Positions 1,989-64,000 of a DNA stretch of 64,000 nt are shown in pieces. The position numbers and the translations under genes are program-made. The stretch's first letter is position 1. Every line of letters begins with the position of its first letter. Origin of the DNA: Diacronema lutheri (taxonomy: Eukaryota > Haptophyta > Pavlovophyceae > Pavlovales > Pavlovaceae). Under the pieces are notes generated by a model. That model saw only the letters and a program-made list of their open reading frames with translations. It did not search any database and was not told where the DNA came from. Location of the stretch: NCBI GenBank assembly GCA_019448385.1, contig JAGTXO010000003.1, positions 992,001 through 1,056,000 on the forward strand, written 5' to 3'.

Positions 1989-3153
1989 ATGGGTGCGCGC
2001 GCGCCGCGAGCCGCGCACGTGCGCGACCGCGCGGCTCAGGCGCGCGCTAGTGGCCGCCGCGCGCGCGCTCGAGGCGCTCAACCTACTTTAGAGTGTGTAC
2101 GGGCCGATCGACGGCGCGAGCTTCCCCGCGCCGCTCCCGCCGCGCGAGGCGGGCGCGTGCGCCAACGGCGACCGTCGGTACCTGTGGACGGATGCGTTCG
2201 CCGTGCTCGCACTCGCGACGATCGCCGACAACCTCGACGGTGCGCCGCCTGGTTCACCGCTCGGCGAGCCTGCACGCTTCCGTTGCGCTGCTGGCGCACT
2301 CGTCAATGCCGTGCACGCGGGCCTTGGCGCGCCGCGCTCGCCGGCCGCTGCCGACGCGATGCGCGCTGACCCGCGCTCGCCGACCGGGCACGTCGGCCTG
2401 CGCATCGGCAAGGTAAGTTCCGCGCCGCGCACGGACGTGGGCATGGCGCTCGACGGACAATACTTTCACTATCTCGACAAATGGCTCCTTGCGCTCGTGC
2501 GCGCCGGTCGTGCGGACGACGCGGCGGCGATCGCCAAAGCGGCCTTCCCGCCCTTTTTCGACGCCGGTCCGCACGGCGACGGGCGCGGAGGCGGCGTCCG
2601 GTGGAAGCTGTCGGCCGACGCGAGCGCGCCGCTCGGGCTGGCACACGCGCGCGCGACCGATGACACGCTCGGCGCGCGCATTGTACTCGGGCTCGTCGAG
2701 CACCACCGCTCCCGCGCCGCGCCGTCGCTACGCGCCGAGCTCGCGCTGCTCGACGCGGCTCTGCGCGGGTACGTGCCGCGCGCGACGGACGACCCGCTCG
2801 GCTGGGGCCTGCAGGCGTTCTTCGACGGGTTTGTACGTGGCCAGCCACGCGCGCGCGCGCTCGCCGCACTCGCGCCGCGCGCGCTCGACGCGCGCCATTT
2901 CGCGCTACCTTTTCGCCTGTACGGCGCGCTGCTCGGCGCGCGCGTCGCGCTCATGCGCCCAGCCGGCGCACCGCTCGCGCGCGCGGCTGACGTCGAGCGG
3001 CTGATGGACGCCGGTCTCGAGCGCGAGCGGCGCGCGGCGGCGGCGGACGGGCAGGAGCACACGTCGATCAACCGCGTGATGCTCGCCGCGTGTTGCATCG
3101 CCACGCCTGGCGCGTTCGCGCCGCGCGATGGCGAGCCGCTCGTCGAGTTCTGA
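1989..3153 (+). CDS. Conserved six-hairpin-glycosidase-like protein of unknown function
   Basis: The main exon (2092-3153) encodes YGPIDGASFP, RYLWTDAFAV, GLRIGK and DGQYFHYLDKW, a set I know from an uncharacterised conserved family with an (alpha/alpha)6-barrel-like pattern. No catalytic assignment can be made from sequence. The main frame has a TAG at 2089-2091 and no ATG nearby. My proposed structure is join(1989..2018, 2092..3153): the short first exon ATG to CAC (MGARAPRAAH), a 73-base intron with GTGCGC donor and TTTAG acceptor, then SVYGPIDG in phase 0, giving 363 residues. This first exon is inference; an upstream exon elsewhere is possible. Two short runs, GDGRGGG and ARARALAAL, are low complexity. 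The gene follows FO synthase on the same strand with 249 bases between. Confidence 0.6.
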
Positions 3154-3184
3154 CGCGCGGCGCGCGATTTGTTTTGGGTACAAG

Positions 3185-3220
3185 GGCGTCCTCCATTGCG
3201 GCGGCGCAATGTAGGACGCC
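3185..3220. repeat. Near-perfect hairpin 3' of the six-hairpin-like gene
   Basis: GGCGTCCT-C-CATTGCG, loop GCGG, CGCAATG-T-AGGACGCC: 15 paired bases with one mismatch and a four-base loop, 31 bases after the stop codon at 3151-3153. It could be a transcript 3'-end structure. A 31-base G run follows at 3238. Confidence 0.6.
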
Positions 3221-3237
3221 AGCTCGCGAGGAGGGGT

Positions 3238-3268
<31 letters not shown>
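3238..3268. repeat. Poly-G tract (31 bases)
   Basis: Uninterrupted G run in the spacer between the six-hairpin-like gene and the MLO-like gene. Length in an assembly of such a run is uncertain. Confidence 0.9.
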
Positions 3269-3269
<1 letters not shown>

Positions 3270-3430
3270 CGCGCCGTCGGCCGCCAAGCTGTCGAGTGTG
3301 TGCAGAAGGATGAATGGATGACCTTCACAAGTCACCACTTCTTAAGAGCTTTCCACGATTCTTCCGTGGAAGGACCCAATATCGCCGGGACCGTCGGGCG
3401 GGATCGACGCGCATCCCGGCCGCGCCGAGC

Positions 3431-5894
3431 ATGGGCCTCGACGTGTGGTGGGGCTCGCTCGAAGAATACCGCATCTTTGAAAGCATTGTCGTGATTGTCC
3501 TCTGCACGCTCGCGCTCGTCTTTGACGCGCTGCTGCAGACGGCGCGGCGGTGGGTGCTCGCGATCGACCAGCAGCCGATGCACGCGGACGTGCCCGCATT
3601 CTACGAGGCGCTCTTCACGCGCTTCTCCGCCGAGCTGATGACGCTCGGCTTCATCGCATTCATCATCTGGAATCTTCGCCGGTACAGCTTCTTTGACGAC
3701 GTCGTCGACAGCCTGCGCGCGCGGCGCGACGACGAGCCGGCCGGCGGGTACGCCGGCCGAGCGCTCGCCGGCGCGGCGGCCGAACCGGCCGCGTACGACA
3801 CGCAGACCTCGATGAGTGTCACGTCCGTCGACTACTCGCTCCCGAGCGCGGGCGCTGACCTGCTGCACCTTGTCGAGGATGTGCACATGCACATCTTCGT
3901 CTCGATGTGCGTCTACTTTGCGCTCATGGCGGTCGCCATCCGATACACGCGGCACATGTGCGCGCGCTGGTCCGATTGGGAGGCCGCCGAGCTCGAGCGC
4001 GTAGAGTCCGGCAGGCCGCAGCCCGGCACAGGTAAAGACGGCCCAGCAGACGCGCCCGCAGCCGAGCCGCGCCCGCTGCAGCGCTGGCCGACCGGCATGC
4101 TCGCGGCGGCCGTCGGCAGCGGCGGCAACGACGGCGGCGCGGCGTGGCAGCCGCCATGGCGCGCCGCGACGCGCGCGCGCTGGATCACGCTCGGCGTCGC
4201 CGATGAATTCCTGTCCGTCCGCGCCTTTTTCGTCCAATGGGCGCGCTCCGGCGGGCTGGGGTACATCGAGGAAATGCGGCTGCGCCGGCACGAGCGCGAG
4301 GCGGCGCTCGCGCGCGAGGACGTAGTTCGCCGGATTTGCCTCCGCCTCCTCCCGCCTGCGCGCCCGCGCCAGCCCGATCTCGACTCGCAGCAGCCGCTCT
4401 CCGTGCGCGCGCGCCGGCGCGCGTACGTTGGCCAGCTGCGCTCGTCCGTCGTCGCGCACCTGCCGCACGCGCCCCGCCTGCCGCACGCGCCCCGCCTGCC
4501 GCACGCGCCGCACGCGCCGCACGTGCGCTTTGCGCCGCTCGAGCGCGTCGCGCTGCGCGCCTCCACGTTGGCCGCGCGCGTGCTCGGCGACGTGCCGCCG
4601 GCCGGCGCGCCCGCGGCGGAAGACGACGACGACGACGACGCGCGCGCGCGGGCGCGGCGCGCGGGCGAGCGCGCGTCGCTCGGCGCGCTCGGCGCTGTGC
4701 GCCGCGCGCTGCGAATGCCGCAGCGCCCAGCCGCGGCCAAGACCACGGCCGCGTGCACGGAGGCGAGCGCGGCGCCGCCGGCCGACGCGCCGCCGCCGTC
4801 GCTTCCGAACGACGACGCGAGCGGCGGCGCGCTCCGGCAGCGCCGGCCCTACACGCCGCTCGGCCCCGTCGACGAGCAGCGGCAGCCGGCGGGCGGCGCG
4901 GTGCGGCGGCTGCTGCCGCTGCGTCTCGAGATGGCGCTGCACGACGCGCTCACCGTCGCGGAGGAGCGCTTCTTCACGCGCGCGTCGACGGGCGCGGCGG
5001 TGGCGATCGACGGCGGCACCTTCCGCCTGTCCGAATACCTCACGTACTGCTTCTCGGAGATGCTCGGCGAGCTCGTCGAGTTCAAGCCGAGCGCGTGGCT
5101 AACCGTGCTCGTGCTGCGCCTTTTCGAACTCGCCTGCCTGCTCGGCGGCATCGGCGCGTCTGCGCTCGAGCTGTTTTTCGGAGTCCTCACCGTGAGCGCA
5201 CAACTGCTCATGTGGGCGCTCGCGCGCAAGTACGCACGCGACGTGATCAGCGCGGCGCAGACAGGCCTCAAGCAGGGCCCGCTCCGGCCAGCTGCGAAGC
5301 CGCCGCTGCTCGGACGCCGCGCGCCGCGCGCCAGCTTCGCACCGAGCATGACAGAGGGCGACACCCTGCGCGGCGCGTTCCGGCCATCGTGGCTCGTCGC
5401 CTTTGTCCGCCGCTTCCGTGTCGACGCGTGCTTCTTGCTCGCGCTGCAGGCCTTGACCTGGCGCAATATCTTCCGCGTCGTTGAGTGGCTGCTCGGGCCT
5501 CAGCTCATCGAGGCCGACGCGGGCGAGCTTGACGCAAAGCTCGGCGCGCGCGTCAGCCTCGGCGTCGTGCTCACGATGGCGCTCGTCTCGACGCTCGTCC
5601 CGCTCGTGCACTTCGACTGGGGCCTGGCCCTCTTCCTGCCGCCGCACATTGACGAGAAGAACGTCGAGATTGCCGAGCTCGTGCGCGCGCGCCGCGCCGC
5701 GCGCCACGCGCCGCGCCGCGCGCCACGCGTCGCGCCGCGCCGCGCCGCGCTACGCGGATGCGCACCGACACGCGCTGCGGCGCGGCGCGGCCTTTTCGTG
5801 TGCGCTCGGCGAATGGGGCGGATCGCAGGTGTGCCGGCGGCAGATGAACGCGCAGGCGGCCATGGCGCGCGAGGAGGCTCAGCGCTCATGCTGA
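3431..5894 (+). CDS. MLO-like seven-transmembrane protein
   Basis: Predicted join(3431..5680, 5829..5894), 771 residues. The N-terminus GSLEEYRIFESIVVIVLC matches the SLEET-TM1 start of plant MLO proteins, followed by a second helix (LMTLGFIAFIIWNL) and a third (MHIFVSMCVYFALMAVAI). FLSVRAFFVQWARSG and FRLSEYLTYCFSEMLGELVE match the two conserved cytosolic MLO segments (CFFRQF... and F-KYI-R-E-DF...). Three or four further hydrophobic helices follow. MLO proteins are plasma-membrane proteins implicated in calcium handling. A long low-complexity loop with LPHAPR repeats (about 4462-4520), a poly-Asp run and many Arg/Ala residues separates the conserved blocks. The intron (148 bases, phase 0, GTGCGC...GCAG) removes a CGCGCC array. 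An in-frame ATG at 3314 would add 39 residues; 3431 fits the family start better. Confidence 0.7.
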
Positions 5895-56441: not shown

Positions 56442-58700
56442 TCACCCCTTCGCCCCGTGCGCGGCGCAGCTGCTCGTCCAGAGCGTCTCGCGCGCCGCGT
56501 TGACGCGGTCACGCTCTCCCGCGCAGCGCAGCAACACGTCGTGCTCCGGGTGCGTGCACGGCGGGATCAGGCCCGTCGGCGGCGCGCGCTCGGGCCGCGA
56601 CGGGCACTCGATGAGCAGCTGCTCGCGCCCCGTGCACGCGAGCCAGCGCGCGTTGAAACGCATGCCCGCCGCGAGCGTGGCGAGTGCGGGCGAGAGCGCC
56701 GGCGCGCCGCCCGTGCCGTCGTCAGCGCCGTTCGCCTCGACCGCGCCCTGCGTGTCGAAGAGAAGCTGCCCACCTGCGCTCGCTCGCTGCGCGCCGCGCG
56801 CGTACCCGAGCTGGCGGCACGCAACGTCGGCCGCGCGCGCGTGGCCGCGGCTGAGCTCGCCGCGGCTGCACCACGTGCCCCACGTGCCGTTGAGTGGCCG
56901 GTGCGCCGCCGCGGCCTCGAGCCGCTCGCGCTGGTGCGCGTTCGCGCGCAGCACGAGGAGCAGGCCCTCTGGGTACGCAGACAGCATGAGCGTCCCCTCG
57001 GCGAGCTGGCAGCTCTCCGCGCGGCCATCGCCCGCGCCCGCCTCGCGCGCGGGCAGCATGGCGGCCTCAGTGCTCCCACGCCGCGCGAGCGAGACGCGCA
57101 TGACGAGCAGGGATGTGAGCATCTGCGAGGCGGTCAGCGCGCTCGGCTCCTCCGCCGGCGTGCGACTGCCGGCGCTGAGCACACGCGTGGCCAAGACAGA
57201 CGACGTGGCCGTGCCATTAGGCAAAAATCGCCCGCTGCCGCCGCCGCTGCCGCTGCCGCCGCCGCTGCCGCCGCCGCCGCCGCCGCGCCGCAAGCCTGCG
57301 CCGAGCGGACCGAAGGGCGGCGCAGGAAGCGTCGACGTGGACACGAGCACCGCCGCCGTCACCGTCGCGAGCGTGAGCGCGCCGCCGCACGCGAGCGCGC
57401 CGCCGAGCCGCCGTCGCCGCGGCGCCGCGCGCACGACCGACGCGTCGGACCAAGAGGGCGGGCGCAGGGGCGACCGGCGATCGCTAGCAGCGGCCTTGGC
57501 AGGCGCGCCGATCGCGCTTGCAGGAGTAAGCAGCTGACATTGCGCCGCGACGGGCACGTGCGCGGCTGGCGCGCCCGCGGGTGCACTGCTCGGCTCGCAG
57601 CGCGCGCCGGTGGGACGCTCGGGCGCGGGCGCGGGCACGCTGGCGGCGGCTGCGATGCGCGCTGCCGCGTCGTGCTGCAACGCGGGTGGAGGAGGCGACG
57701 TTTGAACGCTGAGTGAGCCGCCGAGCGTCGCTCCGCAGCTCCGCGTCGCACCGCCGCCATGCTCGCGACACGCGTCGGGTGAGTCGGTCGCCGGCGCCAC
57801 GGCGGCTGGCGCGGCGGCTGGCACGGCGGCTGGCGCGACGGCTGGCGCGGCGGCTGGCGCGGCGGCTGGCGCGGCGGCTGGCGCGCGATGCGATGCTGTC
57901 AGCACCGCGTCAGTCGCGGTCGCGGCCGCCAAGGCCGCGGCGGCCGCCGCGCTCGCGCGCGCAGCCGCCTGTGCCGCGATCGCGGCAGACGCCGACGCAG
58001 CCTGCGCGGCTGACGCCCATGCGGGTGCGCCGACCTCAAAATCGTCCGCGCCATCGTGCGGCTGGCGCATCGCCCCAGAGAGCGCGTAGTGCGCGGCGGC
58101 CGCGACGAGCTGCGCGCCCGAGCTCGCTTGCGGCCGCAGCGACGAGCCGCTCGGCGGGCCGCCAGTCTCCCAGCCGGGGTGCACGGGCTCGGGCGTTGAT
58201 GGGCCGAGCGAGGATGGCGGCGAGTGCGGCGACGACCACGCCTCGGGCGAAGGCGGCGATTTGGCGCCGAACGCATGGCTTGCGCGCGAGCTAGCGCGCG
58301 GCGGCGGTGCGCGAAGCGCCGGCGGGCCCTCGTGCGAGAACGCGACGACGGTGCGCGCGTCCAGCGGCGTCGGCGTGAACGGCCGAGACCGGTCGCCTGC
58401 CGACGAATCGGGTGGCATCGCGTGTCGCGCGGGAGTGTGCGTAGGCGGGCCGCACGACTGCGCGCGCAGCGGCGAGCCGCCGCCCAGCATGCCGCCCTGG
58501 TTAGCGGACGCCTCGTGGATCGAGCTCACACGGCGGGCGAGGTTGCGCTGCGCGGAGAGCGGCTCAGGTATCGCGGCGGCCTGCGCGCTCGTCTCGATCA
58601 TCTGCTCCCAGCTTTGAACAACCTCGCCGACGGCACGCGGCGTCGGCACCTCTACTCCTGCCCACCACGACGTGTACCCCGAGCTCGTCCGATCCGCCAT
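56442..58700 (-). CDS. Type II membrane protein with a C-terminal SRCR-like domain
   Basis: A 752-residue intronless protein. The first 430 residues are Pro/Ala/Ser-rich and probably cytosolic and disordered, with (APAA)n repeats. A single hydrophobic segment (LGGALACGGALTLATVTAAV) follows RRRR, giving type II topology, then a Gly/Ser linker (GGGGGGSGGGSGSGGGSG). The extracellular end has NGTWGTWCSRGELS, AADVACRQLGYARG, LACTGREQLLIECP and HDVLLRCAGE, the Cys pattern and GxWGTxC start of SRCR domains. It is the second SRCR protein in the window, with the same cytosolic-TM-linker-SRCR plan. The ATG at 58700 is 20 bases from a transposon insertion. Confidence 0.75.
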   Translation of the reverse strand: MADRTSSGYTSWWAGVEVPTPRAVGEVVQSWEQMIETSAQAAAIPEPLSAQRNLARRVSSIHEASANQGGMLGGGSPLRAQSCGPPTHTPARHAMPPDSSAGDRSRPFTPTPLDARTVVAFSHEGPPALRAPPPRASSRASHAFGAKSPPSPEAWSSPHSPPSSLGPSTPEPVHPGWETGGPPSGSSLRPQASSGAQLVAAAAHYALSGAMRQPHDGADDFEVGAPAWASAAQAASASAAIAAQAAARASAAAAAALAAATATDAVLTASHRAPAAAPAAAPAAAPAVAPAAVPAAAPAAVAPATDSPDACREHGGGATRSCGATLGGSLSVQTSPPPPALQHDAAARIAAAASVPAPAPERPTGARCEPSSAPAGAPAAHVPVAAQCQLLTPASAIGAPAKAAASDRRSPLRPPSWSDASVVRAAPRRRRLGGALACGGALTLATVTAAVLVSTSTLPAPPFGPLGAGLRRGGGGGGSGGGSGSGGGSGRFLPNGTATSSVLATRVLSAGSRTPAEEPSALTASQMLTSLLVMRVSLARRGSTEAAMLPAREAGAGDGRAESCQLAEGTLMLSAYPEGLLLVLRANAHQRERLEAAAAHRPLNGTWGTWCSRGELSRGHARAADVACRQLGYARGAQRASAGGQLLFDTQGAVEANGADDGTGGAPALSPALATLAAGMRFNARWLACTGREQLLIECPSRPERAPPTGLIPPCTHPEHDVLLRCAGERDRVNAARETLWTSSCAAHGAKG
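57797..57889 (-). repeat. 12-bp tandem repeat encoding Ala-Pro-Ala-Ala
   Basis: About eight copies of GCGGCTGGCGCG (plus strand), with a few ACG and ACGG variants, encode (APAA)n in the SRCR protein. Confidence 0.85.
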
Positions 58701-58721: not shown

Positions 58722-59171
58722 TGAGGAGTACTGCCCGTTGGGTCTGAGTTCGCGGACGAAGGAATAATAGGAGAGACCCGCGCGCGAAAAAGCGAAAATG
58801 GCCGCGAGAGGTGCGCGCGCGCGTCGCGTCGGCCCCGCGGGAGGTGGCGCGGTGCGTGTCGCGCTATGCGTGTCGCCGCTGCGCGTGGGGGTTCCTGACA
58901 TACCCGGGAACCCCGCTCTCATAACCGCGACACGTGCAGGCGGCGCGGCCGCAGCGCCGCGAGCGGCGTCATCATCGGCGTCGGTCGCGGGCACCGGCTC
59001 TCGGTCGAGGTCATGAAGATCATCCTGCGGCGGCTATTTTCTCGGCAGGAGCGCGGTGAGGATTGCGGATGACCTCCACACATCTACCGACACGCTCTTG
59101 GAGTCGATCGTCCGCGCCACCATCGAGCGGTACGAGGCCACCGGCATCGTCGATTCCCAGCCGAACAAGCC
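58722..59171 (+). repeat. Left terminal inverted repeat
   Basis: Pairs with 61054-61497. It contains a 72-codon frame (58798-59016, MAARGARARRVG...) identical in both arms, an internal GGGGTTCC/GGAACCCC hairpin near 58890-58917, and the beginning of the transposase homology. Confidence 0.9.
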
Positions 59172-59430
59172 GTGCGCGAAGCTCATGAGCGAGCTCGACC
59201 AGGAGCTGATGCTCGCGATCATGGCGGAGCAACCGTGACTTAACTTCAGCGAGATTGCGGCCGAGCTGCAGGCTGTCACGCTCAAGGCGTTCACGCGCGA
59301 GTACATTCACTACAACCTCTGCGCCGCCGGCCTCTCGCTCAAGAAGATGCAGCGCGTCCAAGCGGCCCGCGACGAAGAAGAACACCTCGGGCATGCTGAG
59401 GAACAGCTGCGCGCGCTCGACGCTGCTGTT
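59056..59430 (+). pseudogene. Tc1/mariner-type transposase, N-terminal fragment
   Basis: The frame reads RIADDLHTSTDTL, IERYEATGIVDSQPNKP, KLMSELDQELMLAIMAEQP, then after one in-frame TGA (59236-59238) LNFSEIAAELQAVTLKAFT and NLCAAGLSLKKMQRVQAARD. This is the paired helix-turn-helix DNA-binding region of IS630/Tc1 transposases, with YEATGxV and GLSxKK motifs. Homology stops near 59430, before any DDE catalytic motif. The stop and truncation indicate a dead copy. A second copy of the first 40 residues lies in the right arm. Confidence 0.75.
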
Positions 59431-59451
59431 GATGTGCTCAGCAGCCTTGAT

Positions 59452-61044
59452 TCACGCCTGCGCGGTCGCATTCCAGCCAACTTTGCACAACTCGAGCGCC
59501 TGCGCGACCTGCTGCGCGAGCGCCACGCTCTGAGCGGCCGGCATAGTGGGAGCAATGGACTGCGGCGCCGGCACAGGCGCGGAGCAGGCACCGAACGCGC
59601 CGGCCCAGCCGCCCGACGCCACGAGGCCGCCGCCACCGACCTTGCCAGGGTGCTCGGGCGGGGGCGTCACCTCGACGACAAGGTAAAGAATGCAGATGTC
59701 CAAGTCCTGCTGCGCGCCGCTCGGCGCGTAAAACCTGCGCGCCACGTCGGCATCGTCGGTGATCAGCGTCAGGCGGACGAACACTGCGGGCGCGCCGACC
59801 TCTCGCTGATGCCGATCCGGTAGAGCCGAAGGGAGTGAGGCGGCTGCGGCAGGTTGCCGTGAGCCGAGTCGTGCGTCGAGCGTAGGAGCGTGGTGAGCAC
59901 GTCGCGGCTCTCGACCAGCGCGTAAAAGCCGTCGGCTGCTTGTAGACCAACGAGAGCGCATAGCGGCGCGGAAGCGCTTGCTTCGTCATCCTCACCGTCT
60001 TCGCCGGTCGAGCGCGATTAGCGGCGCGACGCGTCTCGCGCGCCGGGCCGGCGCGCCGACACATCGCTCGTCTCCGCCGTGCGCTCCTCAAGCTGCGCGG
60101 CTTTGATCTCCGCCGCCTTTGCGGCCGCCTCGTCCTTGTTGGCGCGCGTCTCCGCCGATCGGGCCTGCGCTTGCGCCTTGTCCCCGAGCGCACGCGCAAA
60201 GTGCATCTTGTTCTCCTCTGCGTGCGCGCGGCCTCCGACTTGGCGAGCTCCGCGGCCTCCGCGCTGTACTGAAGAGGAGCTTGGCCCTTTTTAAAGCTTG
60301 CACGCGAGTGATCGCATCGTTGTCCCCCCGAGTTGGCGCCCAGCTTGACGCACAATGGCTCGCCCGGCTTGAGGGCATCAACAAAGAGGGCATCAACGTA
60401 CGCGTCAAAGGACACGAGGTACACGCGCAGCGTCTCCAAAGCCTTCCCCTCCTCCTCGGAGTCGTCCGCCACGACTTGACCGAATCCTGCGCGGGCACCG
60501 CCGCAAGCCCACGCGCCGGCTCGTGCTCGTCCGGCTCGTGCTCGTCCGGCTCGGCCGCCGGCAGCGCACTCGAGCTACCGGCCTTCGCGCCGGCCCCGCC
60601 GCCGGCGAGGGCGCGCACTGGAGCCGCTTTCTCGGGCGGCTTCGTTGCGCCAGCGCTGGGCTTGCGAGACGAGCGCTGCGGCAGCGCGCCAATTGTTGTA
60701 GGCGAGTACATGGTAACCCTCGGCACGCGGGGTCGCGCGCCAGCCGGCGCCGAGGTCTCGCGCGCGCGATCGGCCTCGTCTTGGTCGGCCTTGCGCTTCG
60801 CTCGCGTCATCTTGTCGGCTATCGCCTTGTCCAACGGACCGGCGCGCACGTCCTTGACGCGACCAACGCCAGCGCGCGCGCCGGCGTCCGCGTCCAAGCG
60901 AATGGGCGCCGAGCGCGCCTGCGCCGGCCGGCGGGCCGGGCGCGGCGGATGTCGCAGCTGCGGCGGCGGAGTCCTGGCCATTTTGGGAACCCGGGGCCGG
61001 CACGGCGACACCGTCCGCGACGCCGCCGTCCGCTGCCGGCTCAC
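59452..61044 (-). pseudogene. Captured gene remnant inside the element
   Basis: On the minus strand several protein-like segments appear in changing frames: KAIADKMTRAKRKADQDEAD with MYSPTTIGALPQRSSRK (60900-60600); GKALETLRVYLVSFDAYVDA with VKLGANSGG (60450-60330); a Lys/Glu/Ala coiled coil (60210-60040); and FYALVESRDVLTTLL, VFVRLTLITDDADVARRFYA with ILYLVVEV to a stop at 59452. GCGCAG before GATTCGGTCAAG near 60490 looks like an intron acceptor, but other frame changes are not explained by GT-AG introns. I do not recognise the protein; it is not a transposase. It could be a host gene carried as cargo. Confidence 0.5.
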
Positions 61045-61053
61045 CGAGCGTGT

Positions 61054-61497
61054 GGCTTGTTCGGCTGGGAATCGACGAGGCCGGTGGCCTCGTACCGCTC
61101 GATGGTGGCGCGGACGATCGACTCCGTGAGCGTGTCGGTGGATGTGTGGAGGTCATCCGCAATCCTCACCGCGCTCCTGCCGAGAAAATAGCCGCCGCAG
61201 GATGATCTTCATGACCTCGACCGAGAGCCGGTGCCCGCGACCGACGCCGATGATGACGCCGCTCGCGGCGCTGCGGCCGCGCCGCCTGCACGTGTCGCGG
61301 TTATGAGAGCGGGGTTCCCGGGTATGTCAGGAACCCCCACGCGCAGCGGCGACACGCATAGCGCGACACGCACCGCGCCACCTCCCGCGGGGCCGACGCG
61401 ACGCGCGCGCGCACCTCTCGCGGCCATTTTCGCTTTTTCGCGCGCGGGTCTCTCCTATTCCTTCGTCCGCGAACTCAGACCCAACGGGCAGTACTCA
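61054..61497 (-). repeat. Right terminal inverted repeat
   Basis: The inverted partner of 58722-59171. It includes the same 72-codon frame (61209-61427, minus) and the first part of the transposase frame up to SQPNKP, then switches to unrelated sequence at 61053. Confidence 0.9.
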
Positions 61498-61567
61498 TAT
61501 GGGGGTATGGGGATATGGGCTCTATCACACCGTTTGTCCTCTGCTCGATTCAAACGGCCGCACAAGG

Positions 61568-63332
61568 ATGCCGGCCGCGGCGAGCAGGCCGGGGGCCACC
61601 ACCGGGCGTGGCGGCGAAGGGCCACCGCCGGGCGTGGCGGCGAAGGGCGCGACGCTGTCCGCGTCCGACTTTGCGTTCCGCGACTTTGCGCCGTCGCGGC
61701 TCGCGGCTCGGCCGGACAATCGCGCGATCGCCACGGACGCGCGCGCGCCGCCGGCTGGCGCGGGCGGCGGCGCGCTGCGCGAGAACCGCGCGCCGCGCGC
61801 CGAGCCGCCGTCGGCGGCGCTGCGGCGCACAGTGGCGCAGCTCTCCGCCCGGCTGGTGGAGATGGAGCGCGATCACGTCCTCGCGACCAAGCGCAGCGCC
61901 TCGTTCGAGGCGCAGCTCGCCGACCGCACCGCGGAGCTCGCGCGCGTGCGCGGTGAGCTCGACGCCGCGCGCGCCGCCGGCACATTCGCGCGCGCGGGCG
62001 CGGACGAGGGATTGGGTGGCGGCAGTGAGGCGTCCGCGCTGCGCGCGCAGGTGCGCGAGCTCTCCGCCGCGCTCGCGCGCGCCGATGGCGACGCGCGCCT
62101 CGCGGCGCTGAGCGGCGCGAACGCGCGTCCGCACGACCTGCAGCTCGAGGCGAAAATGTACTTCAAGGAGTGCGTGCGGCTGCAGCAGGAGCTCGCGGCG
62201 GTGGCGGACGAGCGGAATAGCGCTCGTCGCCTCGCCGCCGAGCTCGCCGCCGCGCGCGAAGCCGTCGAGGTCATGCGCGCGCGCGAGCGCGACCGGGCAG
62301 ACGGCGACGCGCTTGACGCGCTCGCGCGCCGCGCCGTGCTTGACCAGATCGACGATGCGGCGACGGCGCTGCGGCGCGAGGTGGGCGAAGTCGCGCGCTT
62401 CGTCGGGCTGCCGCCCGACGACGCCGACACCGACCCGCGCGCGCGCGGCAGTGGGGGGCGCGCGCCGACGATCGACGAGCTGATCGCAGAGGCGCGCGCC
62501 GACGCGCAGCACGCAGCGGCGCGCGAGACGGCGGAGCGGCTGCGCGCGCAGCAGCACGCCGAGCTCGCCGAGCTGCGCGCCGCGCTCGACTCGCGCGAGG
62601 CCGACCGCGAGGCCCTCGAGGCGCGCGCGGCGATGCTCGCCTCTGAGCTTGACAAGCCACTCCTGCTCGCGTGGCGCGCGCCCGGACTCGACGCCGACGC
62701 GGCGGCGGCGCGACGGCGGCGCGCCGAGCAGCGGCGGCAGGTCGCCGCCGCGACGCGCATCGCCGCCGTCTTCGTCGGCCGACGCGCGCGCGCGTCGACC
62801 GCCGCCGAACGCGCGCGCCGTGCGGCCGACGCGAGCGCCGCGACGCGCGACCGCGACGCGTTGATGCAGCGGTACAGAGAAGGGCAGCTCGCGCGCGCGC
62901 GCGCGCCCGCGCCGGGCACGCGCGCGCAGATCGACGCGCGGAGGGCCGAGCTCGCGCGGCTGGAGGGCACGACGGGGGCGCGCGTGCCCGCCGGCGTGCC
63001 GGGCGGCGTGCCCGCCGGCGCGGGCGCAGCGACGGGCCCGCGCGCGCGCGCGAGCGGCGGTGGCGGTGACCAGCCGAGCGCGCGCGAGCGGCAACGGCAG
63101 CTTATGGGCGAGGTCCAGGCCCTCGAGGTGCGTGCAACGCGGCCCGCGGCGCGACGCCGCGCCCGGCACGGTGATATGGTGGCGCGCGCGCGCGTCCACG
63201 CTCACCGCCACCGTGTCGCCGTCCCGCGCGCAGGCCAAGACGGGCGCCCGCGTGCTCAACCCGCGTCCGACGCAGCTCGACAGCTCCTCCGTGCCCGCCG
63301 CGGTGGCGCCGCGCGCACGAGCGCCGCGATGA
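61568..63332 (+). CDS. Coiled-coil protein, function unknown
   Basis: Predicted join(61568..63127, 63234..63332), 552 residues. After a Gly/Ala/Pro-rich N-terminus come long coiled-coil segments (VAQLSARLVEMERDHVLATK, ELDAARAAG, ALRAQVRELSAALARADGDA, LEAKMYFKECVRLQQELAAV, RLAAELAAAREAVEVMRARE, AELAELRAALDSREADREAL). RRQVAAATRIAAVFVGRRAR has a weak IQ-like pattern. The intron is 106 bases, phase 0, GTGCGT...GCAG, and the last exon gives AKTGARVLNPRPTQLD. A structural cytoskeletal or centrosomal role is a guess. The start at 61568 is the first ATG outside the transposon that leads a good frame; an ATG at 61499 overlaps its target-site TA. Confidence 0.65.
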
Positions 63333-64000
63333 CGACTATATACGGCGCGGTCCGGGCTGGTCCGGCCAGTGTAAGGCTGAGAGTACGACCCGGGTCGTAC
63401 AATCAAGGGTTAAAAGCCAGGCAATGAGCGCTCGAGGGGTCGGAGCGATGCTTAGGACGAGCCTAGGACCGAGACCCCCCTCCTGACCGGCCGATTTTGA
63501 GTAGAATTCGGGGTCGAGCGGGCGCGGCGGACGGAGGGCCCGAGCCGGGCCGACGGAGTTACCGACCCCGGAATGCGGGCGACCGGAAGGGCTTGGGTGA
63601 TTGACGCAGAGTAGAATAGAATGGCGGATTCCGGGGGGGATCGCAACTGGCATCGCGCAAGCTGAGGCCCTCTGACTGACCGGACCGCGCCGAGTGCGCG
63701 TGCACCCCGTGGAGGGCGCGGCCAGTCGGACACTCTTCGCGACTGAGCTCGCCGCGGCATACCGTGCGCTGCGCCGGCGCGCTACTTGCCGTTGGCCGAG
63801 CTGCGGGTGTCGCGCACGGCCGTGCTGCGCAGCCAGCGCCTCGATGCGCCGGTGGCCGGAACCAGCGCCTCGACAGCATGTTGGCTCACTTGGGCTCGGT
63901 GCGCGGTGCGCGGCTCTGCCGGCGCGGGCGCGTGCGCGGGCGCGGGCGCGACGCTTCGGACTCGCTGCCCGGCTCTGCCTGTGCGGGCGCGATGCACTCG
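63333..64000. other. Terminal 668 bases without a supported gene
   Basis: Sequence is less GC-extreme. It contains the 18-base perfect palindrome GTACGACCCGGGTCGTAC (63383-63400). Minus-strand frames here are Arg/Pro/Ser-rich without motifs. Near the end, GGCTCTGCC followed by a GCGGGCGC-type tail occurs twice. It may be a 3' UTR, a repeat edge or the start of a gene beyond the window. Confidence 0.35.

Follow-up and report, generated by a model that had tools for sequence, protein, structure and literature searches.

A foldback-like, non-autonomous IS630-Tc1-mariner element with transposase sequence in its long inverted arms in the haptophyte Diacronema lutheri

A 2,761-bp element in the genome of Diacronema lutheri very probably belongs to a foldback-like family of non-autonomous IS630-Tc1-mariner (ITm) elements and has the history proposed below, in which a two-gene ancestor would have suffered internal deletions and had its left end copied onto its right end. 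The element lies in a window of 64,000 nucleotides, the whole stretch of DNA that was analyzed (C4:992001-1056000), and all genome-wide searches were run against the same assembly (43,492,796 bases in 103 contigs). The genome of strain NIVA-4/92 has a GC content of 73.25%, and the main text of the genome paper contains no word beginning with "transpos" (PMC8379373).

Ends, arms, and flanks of the window element

The element spans positions 58731-61491 on the forward strand of the window and runs from CTGCCCGTTGGG to CCCAACGGGCAG; this end pattern is kept among copies, and the flanks vary. It is bordered by TA target-site duplications at 58729-58730 and 61492-61493, as the initial annotation had proposed, and of 37 delimited copies in the genome, 35 are flanked by TA at left and right (the remaining two have GA or AA at the left). 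This count leaves out three further copies (L013/L055, L017, and L022) that could not be delimited with the end pattern used, and the loci L001-L008, which gave no end pair. TGAG/CTCA had been taken for the element termini but is rejected as such. The two bases preceding TACTGCCC vary from copy to copy among the genome-wide end hits, so the element reads CTGCCC (58731) ... GGGCAG (61491). TGAG/CTCA and the second of two 3-base indels reported between the arms belong to the host DNA that surrounds a near-palindromic target (GAGTACTC). A search of the genome for an empty paralogous site with the joined window flanks matched just their own two halves.

The left inverted arm (58731-59171, forward strand) measures 441 bp and the right arm (61054-61491, reverse strand) 438 bp, which agrees with the unusually long arms of about 450 bp noted initially. 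They share 98.4% identity and differ by four substitutions and one 3-bp indel, differences that had all been recorded before. The left arm contains the codons of a transposase pseudogene up to about codon 135 (numbering of the stop-to-stop frame P0001). The right arm is an inverted copy of the left and sits where a 4,161-bp relative of the element has its right end. The outermost parts of the arms (58731-58800, forward strand, and 61425-61491, reverse strand) match the short terminal repeat (~71 bp) of that relative. A transposase gene start pointing inward is found in both arms, as had been claimed, and each carries two in-frame TGA codons in a six-frame match.

Predicted frames adjoin the element on both sides. 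On the reverse strand, 56442-58700 is occupied by a frame of 752 codons whose weak match to the SRCR domain (3.8e-05) falls slightly short of the Pfam cut-off; the frame starts 28 bases from the left TA, which places the element immediately upstream of it. The frame directly to the right (61499-63427, forward strand) has weak coiled-coil matches only, the best being Filament (0.012).

A two-gene relative with a DD41E transposase

The 4,161-bp relative occupies a single locus (L039, C91:243429-247589) and has terminal repeats of about 71 bp. Its transposase frame of 419 codons is free of stops, matches the DDE_3 family (Pfam, 1.1e-19), and scores 119.6 bits against the IS630 equivalog model of NCBIfam (cut-off 100). 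The catalytic residues D226, D311, and E353 are invariant in an alignment of 19 sequences, made up of the C91 protein and 18 of the 22 relatives found, and 41 residues lie between the last two. The predicted enzyme is an IS630-type DD41E transposase; its profile also matches the solved chains of Sleeping Beauty (0.0021) and SETMAR (0.0077). Together with insertion at TA, this relative upholds the earlier assignment to a Tc1/mariner-like element and supplies the full-length transposase that was to be looked for. Among the best 100 of 177 candidates in the genome, no transposase match runs through the catalytic part outside C91 and C38, and no relatives of the C91 transposase were seen in viral contigs, bacterial and archaeal genome contigs, or phage records. 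A literature search found no paper on DD41E in combination with IS630.

The copy on C38 was considered as a second full-length locus and rejected: its right flank is that of C91 but for a run-length difference of one base (139 bases, compared by eye). It lies at the start of its contig and shows many small indels relative to the C91 element and its right flank. C38 and C91 probably represent the same insertion assembled twice, with C38 as a duplicated, poorly polished contig edge.

In comparison with four copies of the short family, the C91 relative is 97-100% identical over the outer 71 bp, 98% up to about position 200, and 84-87% over positions 201-441. Given the latter value and the 73-78% identity in the second gene, the C91 element is a cousin of the short family and not its parent; the original master element was not found. 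At the left end of the relative, identity to the short family drops sharply after about 200 bp, from 98% to about 85%, a pattern suggesting that the ends were exchanged recently or that the outer 200 bp are under constraint.

Gene remnants inside the window element

The window element lacks nt 641-1990 (1,350 bp), 2535-2601, and 3043-3402 of the C91 relative. All three catalytic codons (nt 713, 968, and 1094 of the relative) fall within the missing stretch. The transposase gene is represented by a pseudogene at 58771-59394 (forward strand), which covers the N-terminal ~208 residues (P0001 1-208, six-frame match), contains two in-frame TGA codons, and has lost the catalytic domain. The right end of the relative is replaced by an inverted copy of the window element's own left end, where a second, shorter transposase start lies at 61041-61454 (reverse strand; P0001 1-138, six-frame match, two TGA). 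The window copy holds no intact transposase, its catalytic core being gone and its frame interrupted by two TGA codons; judged from its sequence, it is a non-autonomous deletion derivative.

The second frame of the C91 relative comprises 934 codons on the opposite strand and is convergent with the transposase frame. The interior of the window element, described initially as remnants of an unrelated gene, aligns to this frame in three blocks on the reverse strand. The first (59386-59937) is homologous to nt 1991-2534 of the relative (78% identity), the second (59938-60369) to nt 2602-3042 (77%), and the third (60394-61031) to nt 3403-4040 (73%). By this comparison, the interior is a decayed part of the element's own putative second gene and not foreign cargo. 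Counting the window itself, the interior is present at 39 full-length places and in one split copy at 96-100% identity (best 40 of 56 candidates).

Matches to the second protein are sparse. Pfam (E up to 1), NCBIfam, PHROG, and the PDB gave none, and three pieces of it searched against Pfam at E up to 10 yielded a weak EAD11 match alone (0.12). A single-sequence fold was poor (mean pLDDT 41.6); its only fairly well predicted parts are a long helix at residues 379-451 and, at the C-terminus, a hairpin of two helices (856-893). The hairpin has what we take to be a likeness to SHOCT domains, and Pfam did not list SHOCT for this piece. A near-identical predicted protein of 921 residues exists in another data source (99-100% identity, at least one difference by eye), where it derives from two contigs. 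The longest of these has 4,169 bases, close to the length of the element, a hint that the element occurs as a unit elsewhere as well. No further relatives were seen among the best 7,989 candidates or in a regional search (294), and none were seen in viral contigs.

Two other readings of the interior have to be weighed. Capture of a host gene, similar to Pack-TIR elements, could account for window interior frames without a Pfam match better than E 0.7 and for a second frame in the relative that has none at E up to 1. However, the C91 relative holds the gene as one open frame within its ends, and a 283-residue piece of the second protein has all 53 of its genome matches (best 137 of 155 candidates) inside element copies, at no more than 3.2 kb inward from one of the listed ends. 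The genome was searched with such pieces of the protein, and a 60-residue C-terminal piece matched C91 and C38 alone. The proposed search for a cargo donor among host genes thus led back to element copies, the 283-residue piece showed no host donor, and capture, which is very unlikely, was rejected. It is also unlikely, though it deserves some weight, that the 934-codon frame is a chance product of a GC-rich genome and that the element lacks a second gene. At a GC content of 73%, long frames are nothing unusual, and some stretches of the window itself are covered on either strand by stop-to-stop frames of more than 600 codons. The codon signal of the frame is weak over its last ~230 codons, two of the three blocks lack an excess of differences at third codon positions, and relatives in Pfam, NCBIfam, and the PDB are missing. 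Against this, the longest frame among 500 simulated sequences reached 535 codons, and the GC content by codon position is 0.70/0.55/0.80, with the strongest signal at residues 200-600. In the middle block, differences amount to 0.34 at third positions and 0.17-0.18 elsewhere, and the 921-residue protein from the other data source is almost the same. A second gene belonging to the element remains the preferred reading.

The family across the genome

With up to three mismatches, the 22-nt end pattern gives 101 hits in the genome (48 forward, 53 reverse), and a reversed-pattern control gives 0 and 0; the number of hits is far beyond chance. Of the 101 ends, 100 were listed and paired into at least 45 complete elements, with 10 ends left single, so that the other copies looked for on the earlier advice do exist. 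The complete elements are uniform in length: 41 of the 45 measure 2,729-2,769 bp, and the remaining four 1,282, 2,802, 3,155, and 4,161 bp. The identity of 34 standard copies is 98.5-100%. Among the atypical copies, L040 (C31:67696-68977) is a 1,282-bp internal-deletion derivative that consists of the two arms and one interior piece, and L042 (C75:302512-305666) measures 3,155 bp and has about 400 bp of its interior duplicated. Another repeat of about 140 bp lies some 20-33 bp from three insertions (right flanks of L024 and L037, left flank of L015) and is perhaps a separate TA-type miniature element.

The initial annotation regarded the insertion or the arm duplication as recent. For the insertion this holds loosely, but with 18 private substitutions the window copy exceeds every other one of the 34 aligned copies (0-9) and is therefore not among the youngest.

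Concordance of the two arms

Arm polymorphisms common to at least three copies occur at two alignment columns (307 and 345), and at both the left arm equals the right arm in all 36 short copies. The haplotypes at these columns are TC in 17 copies, CT in 16, and TT in three. They broadly track the interior lineages in a tree of the 34 standard copies; the exception is the TT haplotype, whose three carriers are not monophyletic, which makes it necessary to allow for back mutation or for exchange among copies. Within the interior, 21 of 1,865 positions have variants common to at least three copies, and each 438-bp arm has two such sites, the same two. At the interior rate (21/1,865 x 876), about 10 sites changed in one arm would be expected at this level, and none is seen. 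The sole additional site at the two-copy level is right-arm position 413, common to the window copy and C4:1454014. The change is present in both arms of C4:1454014 and in the right arm alone of the window copy, a discordance that is perhaps a conversion caught halfway.

Singletons number 26 in the arms (29.7/kb) and 74 in the interior (39.7/kb), so mutation is not absent from the arms; 25 of the 26 arm singletons are confined to one arm. Within the 36 copies, the two arms differ at no position in 20, at one in eight, at two in four, at three in one, at four in two, and at 11 in one. In nearly every copy, the left and right arms disagree at three positions of their inner edge; conversion, if real, stops short of this edge. 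Close to the arm tips, L009 (left arm), L010 (right arm), and L023 (both arms) have an AAT-type insertion that was considered as a sign of arm swapping; the inserts are unequal in length, and the insertion was discounted as a run-length hot spot.

The simplest reading of this pattern is that the arms within a copy are kept alike by conversion, probably in repair after excision. The support comes from two arm sites, i.e., about two events. Homogenized arms, as the data suggest, do not date the arm duplication by their identity, and arm similarity therefore fails as the clock for which it had been taken.

Proposed origin of the long arms

The ancestor would have been a two-gene element like the C91 relative, with a DD41E transposase at the left end, a convergent second gene, and repeats of about 71 bp. 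Comparison with the relative shows that internal deletions took out the catalytic core and portions of the second gene. About 440 bp of the left end, transposase start included, may then have been copied onto the right end when repair switched templates; for Galileo, template switching in the course of gap repair has been discussed as a route of repeat lengthening (PMC4168063). The derivative would have multiplied to more than 40 complete copies, with TA as the observed insertion site. Movement presumably occurred in trans, through a transposase of the relative or a similar one that recognizes the ends common to both, and conversion would have held the two arms of each copy alike.

The order in which short repeats came first is read from one relative, and its reverse deserves a hearing: long arms could be ancestral and the C91 element could have lost its right arm. 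Repeats of 250-700 bp are described for other Tc1/mariner elements (Bari2/3, Sardine, Thon), and C91 is a single locus. The reversal is nevertheless quite unlikely, since the second frame of the C91 element starts at its short right repeat and the right arm of the short family replaces precisely that start. Similarly improbable is an explanation of the arm likeness by recent duplication and chance, or by short-read polishing, instead of conversion. The arm sites are few, and polishing of the assembly with Illumina reads (PMC8379373) could blur arm differences. Yet two subfamily changes occur in both arms of 36 out of 36 copies and broadly follow the interior lineages, the expected one-arm sites are missing (one at the two-copy level), and one-arm singletons persist. 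Short repeats first, with arms later kept alike by conversion, is the history we favor.

A wider reading can be put forward only tentatively, as it is somewhat more likely to fail than to hold. The elements may form a new two-gene ITm lineage in which a DD41E transposase is paired with a large, convergently encoded accessory protein that resembles no known protein. Whenever its defective offspring move, they may restore one end on the template of the other, and the inverted arms, together with the transposase start that they contain, would thereby evolve in concert. Arm similarity, as the data suggest, need not measure age.

Comparison with known systems

The element fits best among foldback-like, non-autonomous IS630-Tc1-mariner elements. 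The ITm features are TA target-site duplications, terminal inverted repeats conserved between copies, and, in the full-length relative, a DDE transposase of the IS630/DDE_3 type. The inverted arms (441 and 438 of 2,761 bp) form much of the element, as in foldback elements. Foldback arms are, as a general rule, built of tandem subrepeats, and here the tandem repeats of the arms reach at most 2.4-2.9 copies of 14-15 bp units; a search of the element for long tandem arrays showed none. MITEs are short non-coding elements below about 600 bp, and the window element is longer and holds gene remnants. A Pack-TIR assignment would call for a donor gene outside the elements, and all 53 genome matches of the 283-residue piece lie in element copies; a Sardine/Thon-type assignment would call for a tyrosine recombinase, and Pfam matched nothing in the second frame at E up to 1.

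Multi-gene relatives in the cited literature are from ciliates. Sardine, Thon, and Anchois of Paramecium and TBE of Oxytricha combine an IS630-Tc1 transposase with additional ORFs of unknown function, and the repeats measure 425 bp in Sardine and about 700 bp in Thon (PMC3464196, PMC4724952). The D. lutheri relative likewise couples an IS630-type transposase with another ORF, and long repeats occur in both groups. As far as these papers describe them, Sardine and Thon have palindromic repeats and a gene for a putative tyrosine recombinase, whereas the D. lutheri relative has one 934-codon second frame without detectable relatives, a large orphan gene in an algal IS630-type element. Their transposase is called DD35E (a 32-residue spacer is also stated), in contrast to DD41E in D. 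lutheri, where, moreover, the long arms hold the transposase start and occur in defective copies.

Tetris is a case in which a foldback structure is proposed to arise through transposase loss and repeat elongation (PMC4079207). The D. lutheri elements are similarly non-autonomous with long inverted arms. By that account, Tetris arms have tandem subrepeats of about 220 bp and its duplications are 8-10 bp, whereas the D. lutheri elements have TA and no long tandem arrays. Bari, a Tc1-mariner family of Drosophila, includes forms with short repeats and with repeats of about 250 bp (PMC4877112), comparable to the short- and long-repeat forms here; the Bari repeats are shorter than the D. lutheri arms, and the account cited mentions no second gene. 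Luffy, a mariner of the haptophyte Tisochrysis lutea (PMC5963040), is, by description, alike in host group and in its highly similar copies. It is reported to be potentially autonomous, with its transposase made, whereas the window element is non-autonomous.

A parallel for the arms is Galileo, an element of the P superfamily in Drosophila, whose repeats were lengthened up to more than 500 bp by recruitment of transposase ORF sequence, a process described in that paper as unique to Galileo "so far" (PMC4168063). Both systems recruited part of the transposase ORF into their repeats and consist mostly of defective copies. Galileo belongs to a different superfamily and, in the description given, recruited the 3′ part of the ORF, whereas the D. 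lutheri family recruited the 5′ part and has one arm structure in nearly all copies. A limited literature search found no description of a recruited 5′ gene end with a short-repeat relative alongside, and this combination in one haptophyte family appears to be new. It offers a possible case in which a short-repeat cut-and-paste element gave rise to a long-armed, foldback-like one, with the short-repeat relative present in the same genome.
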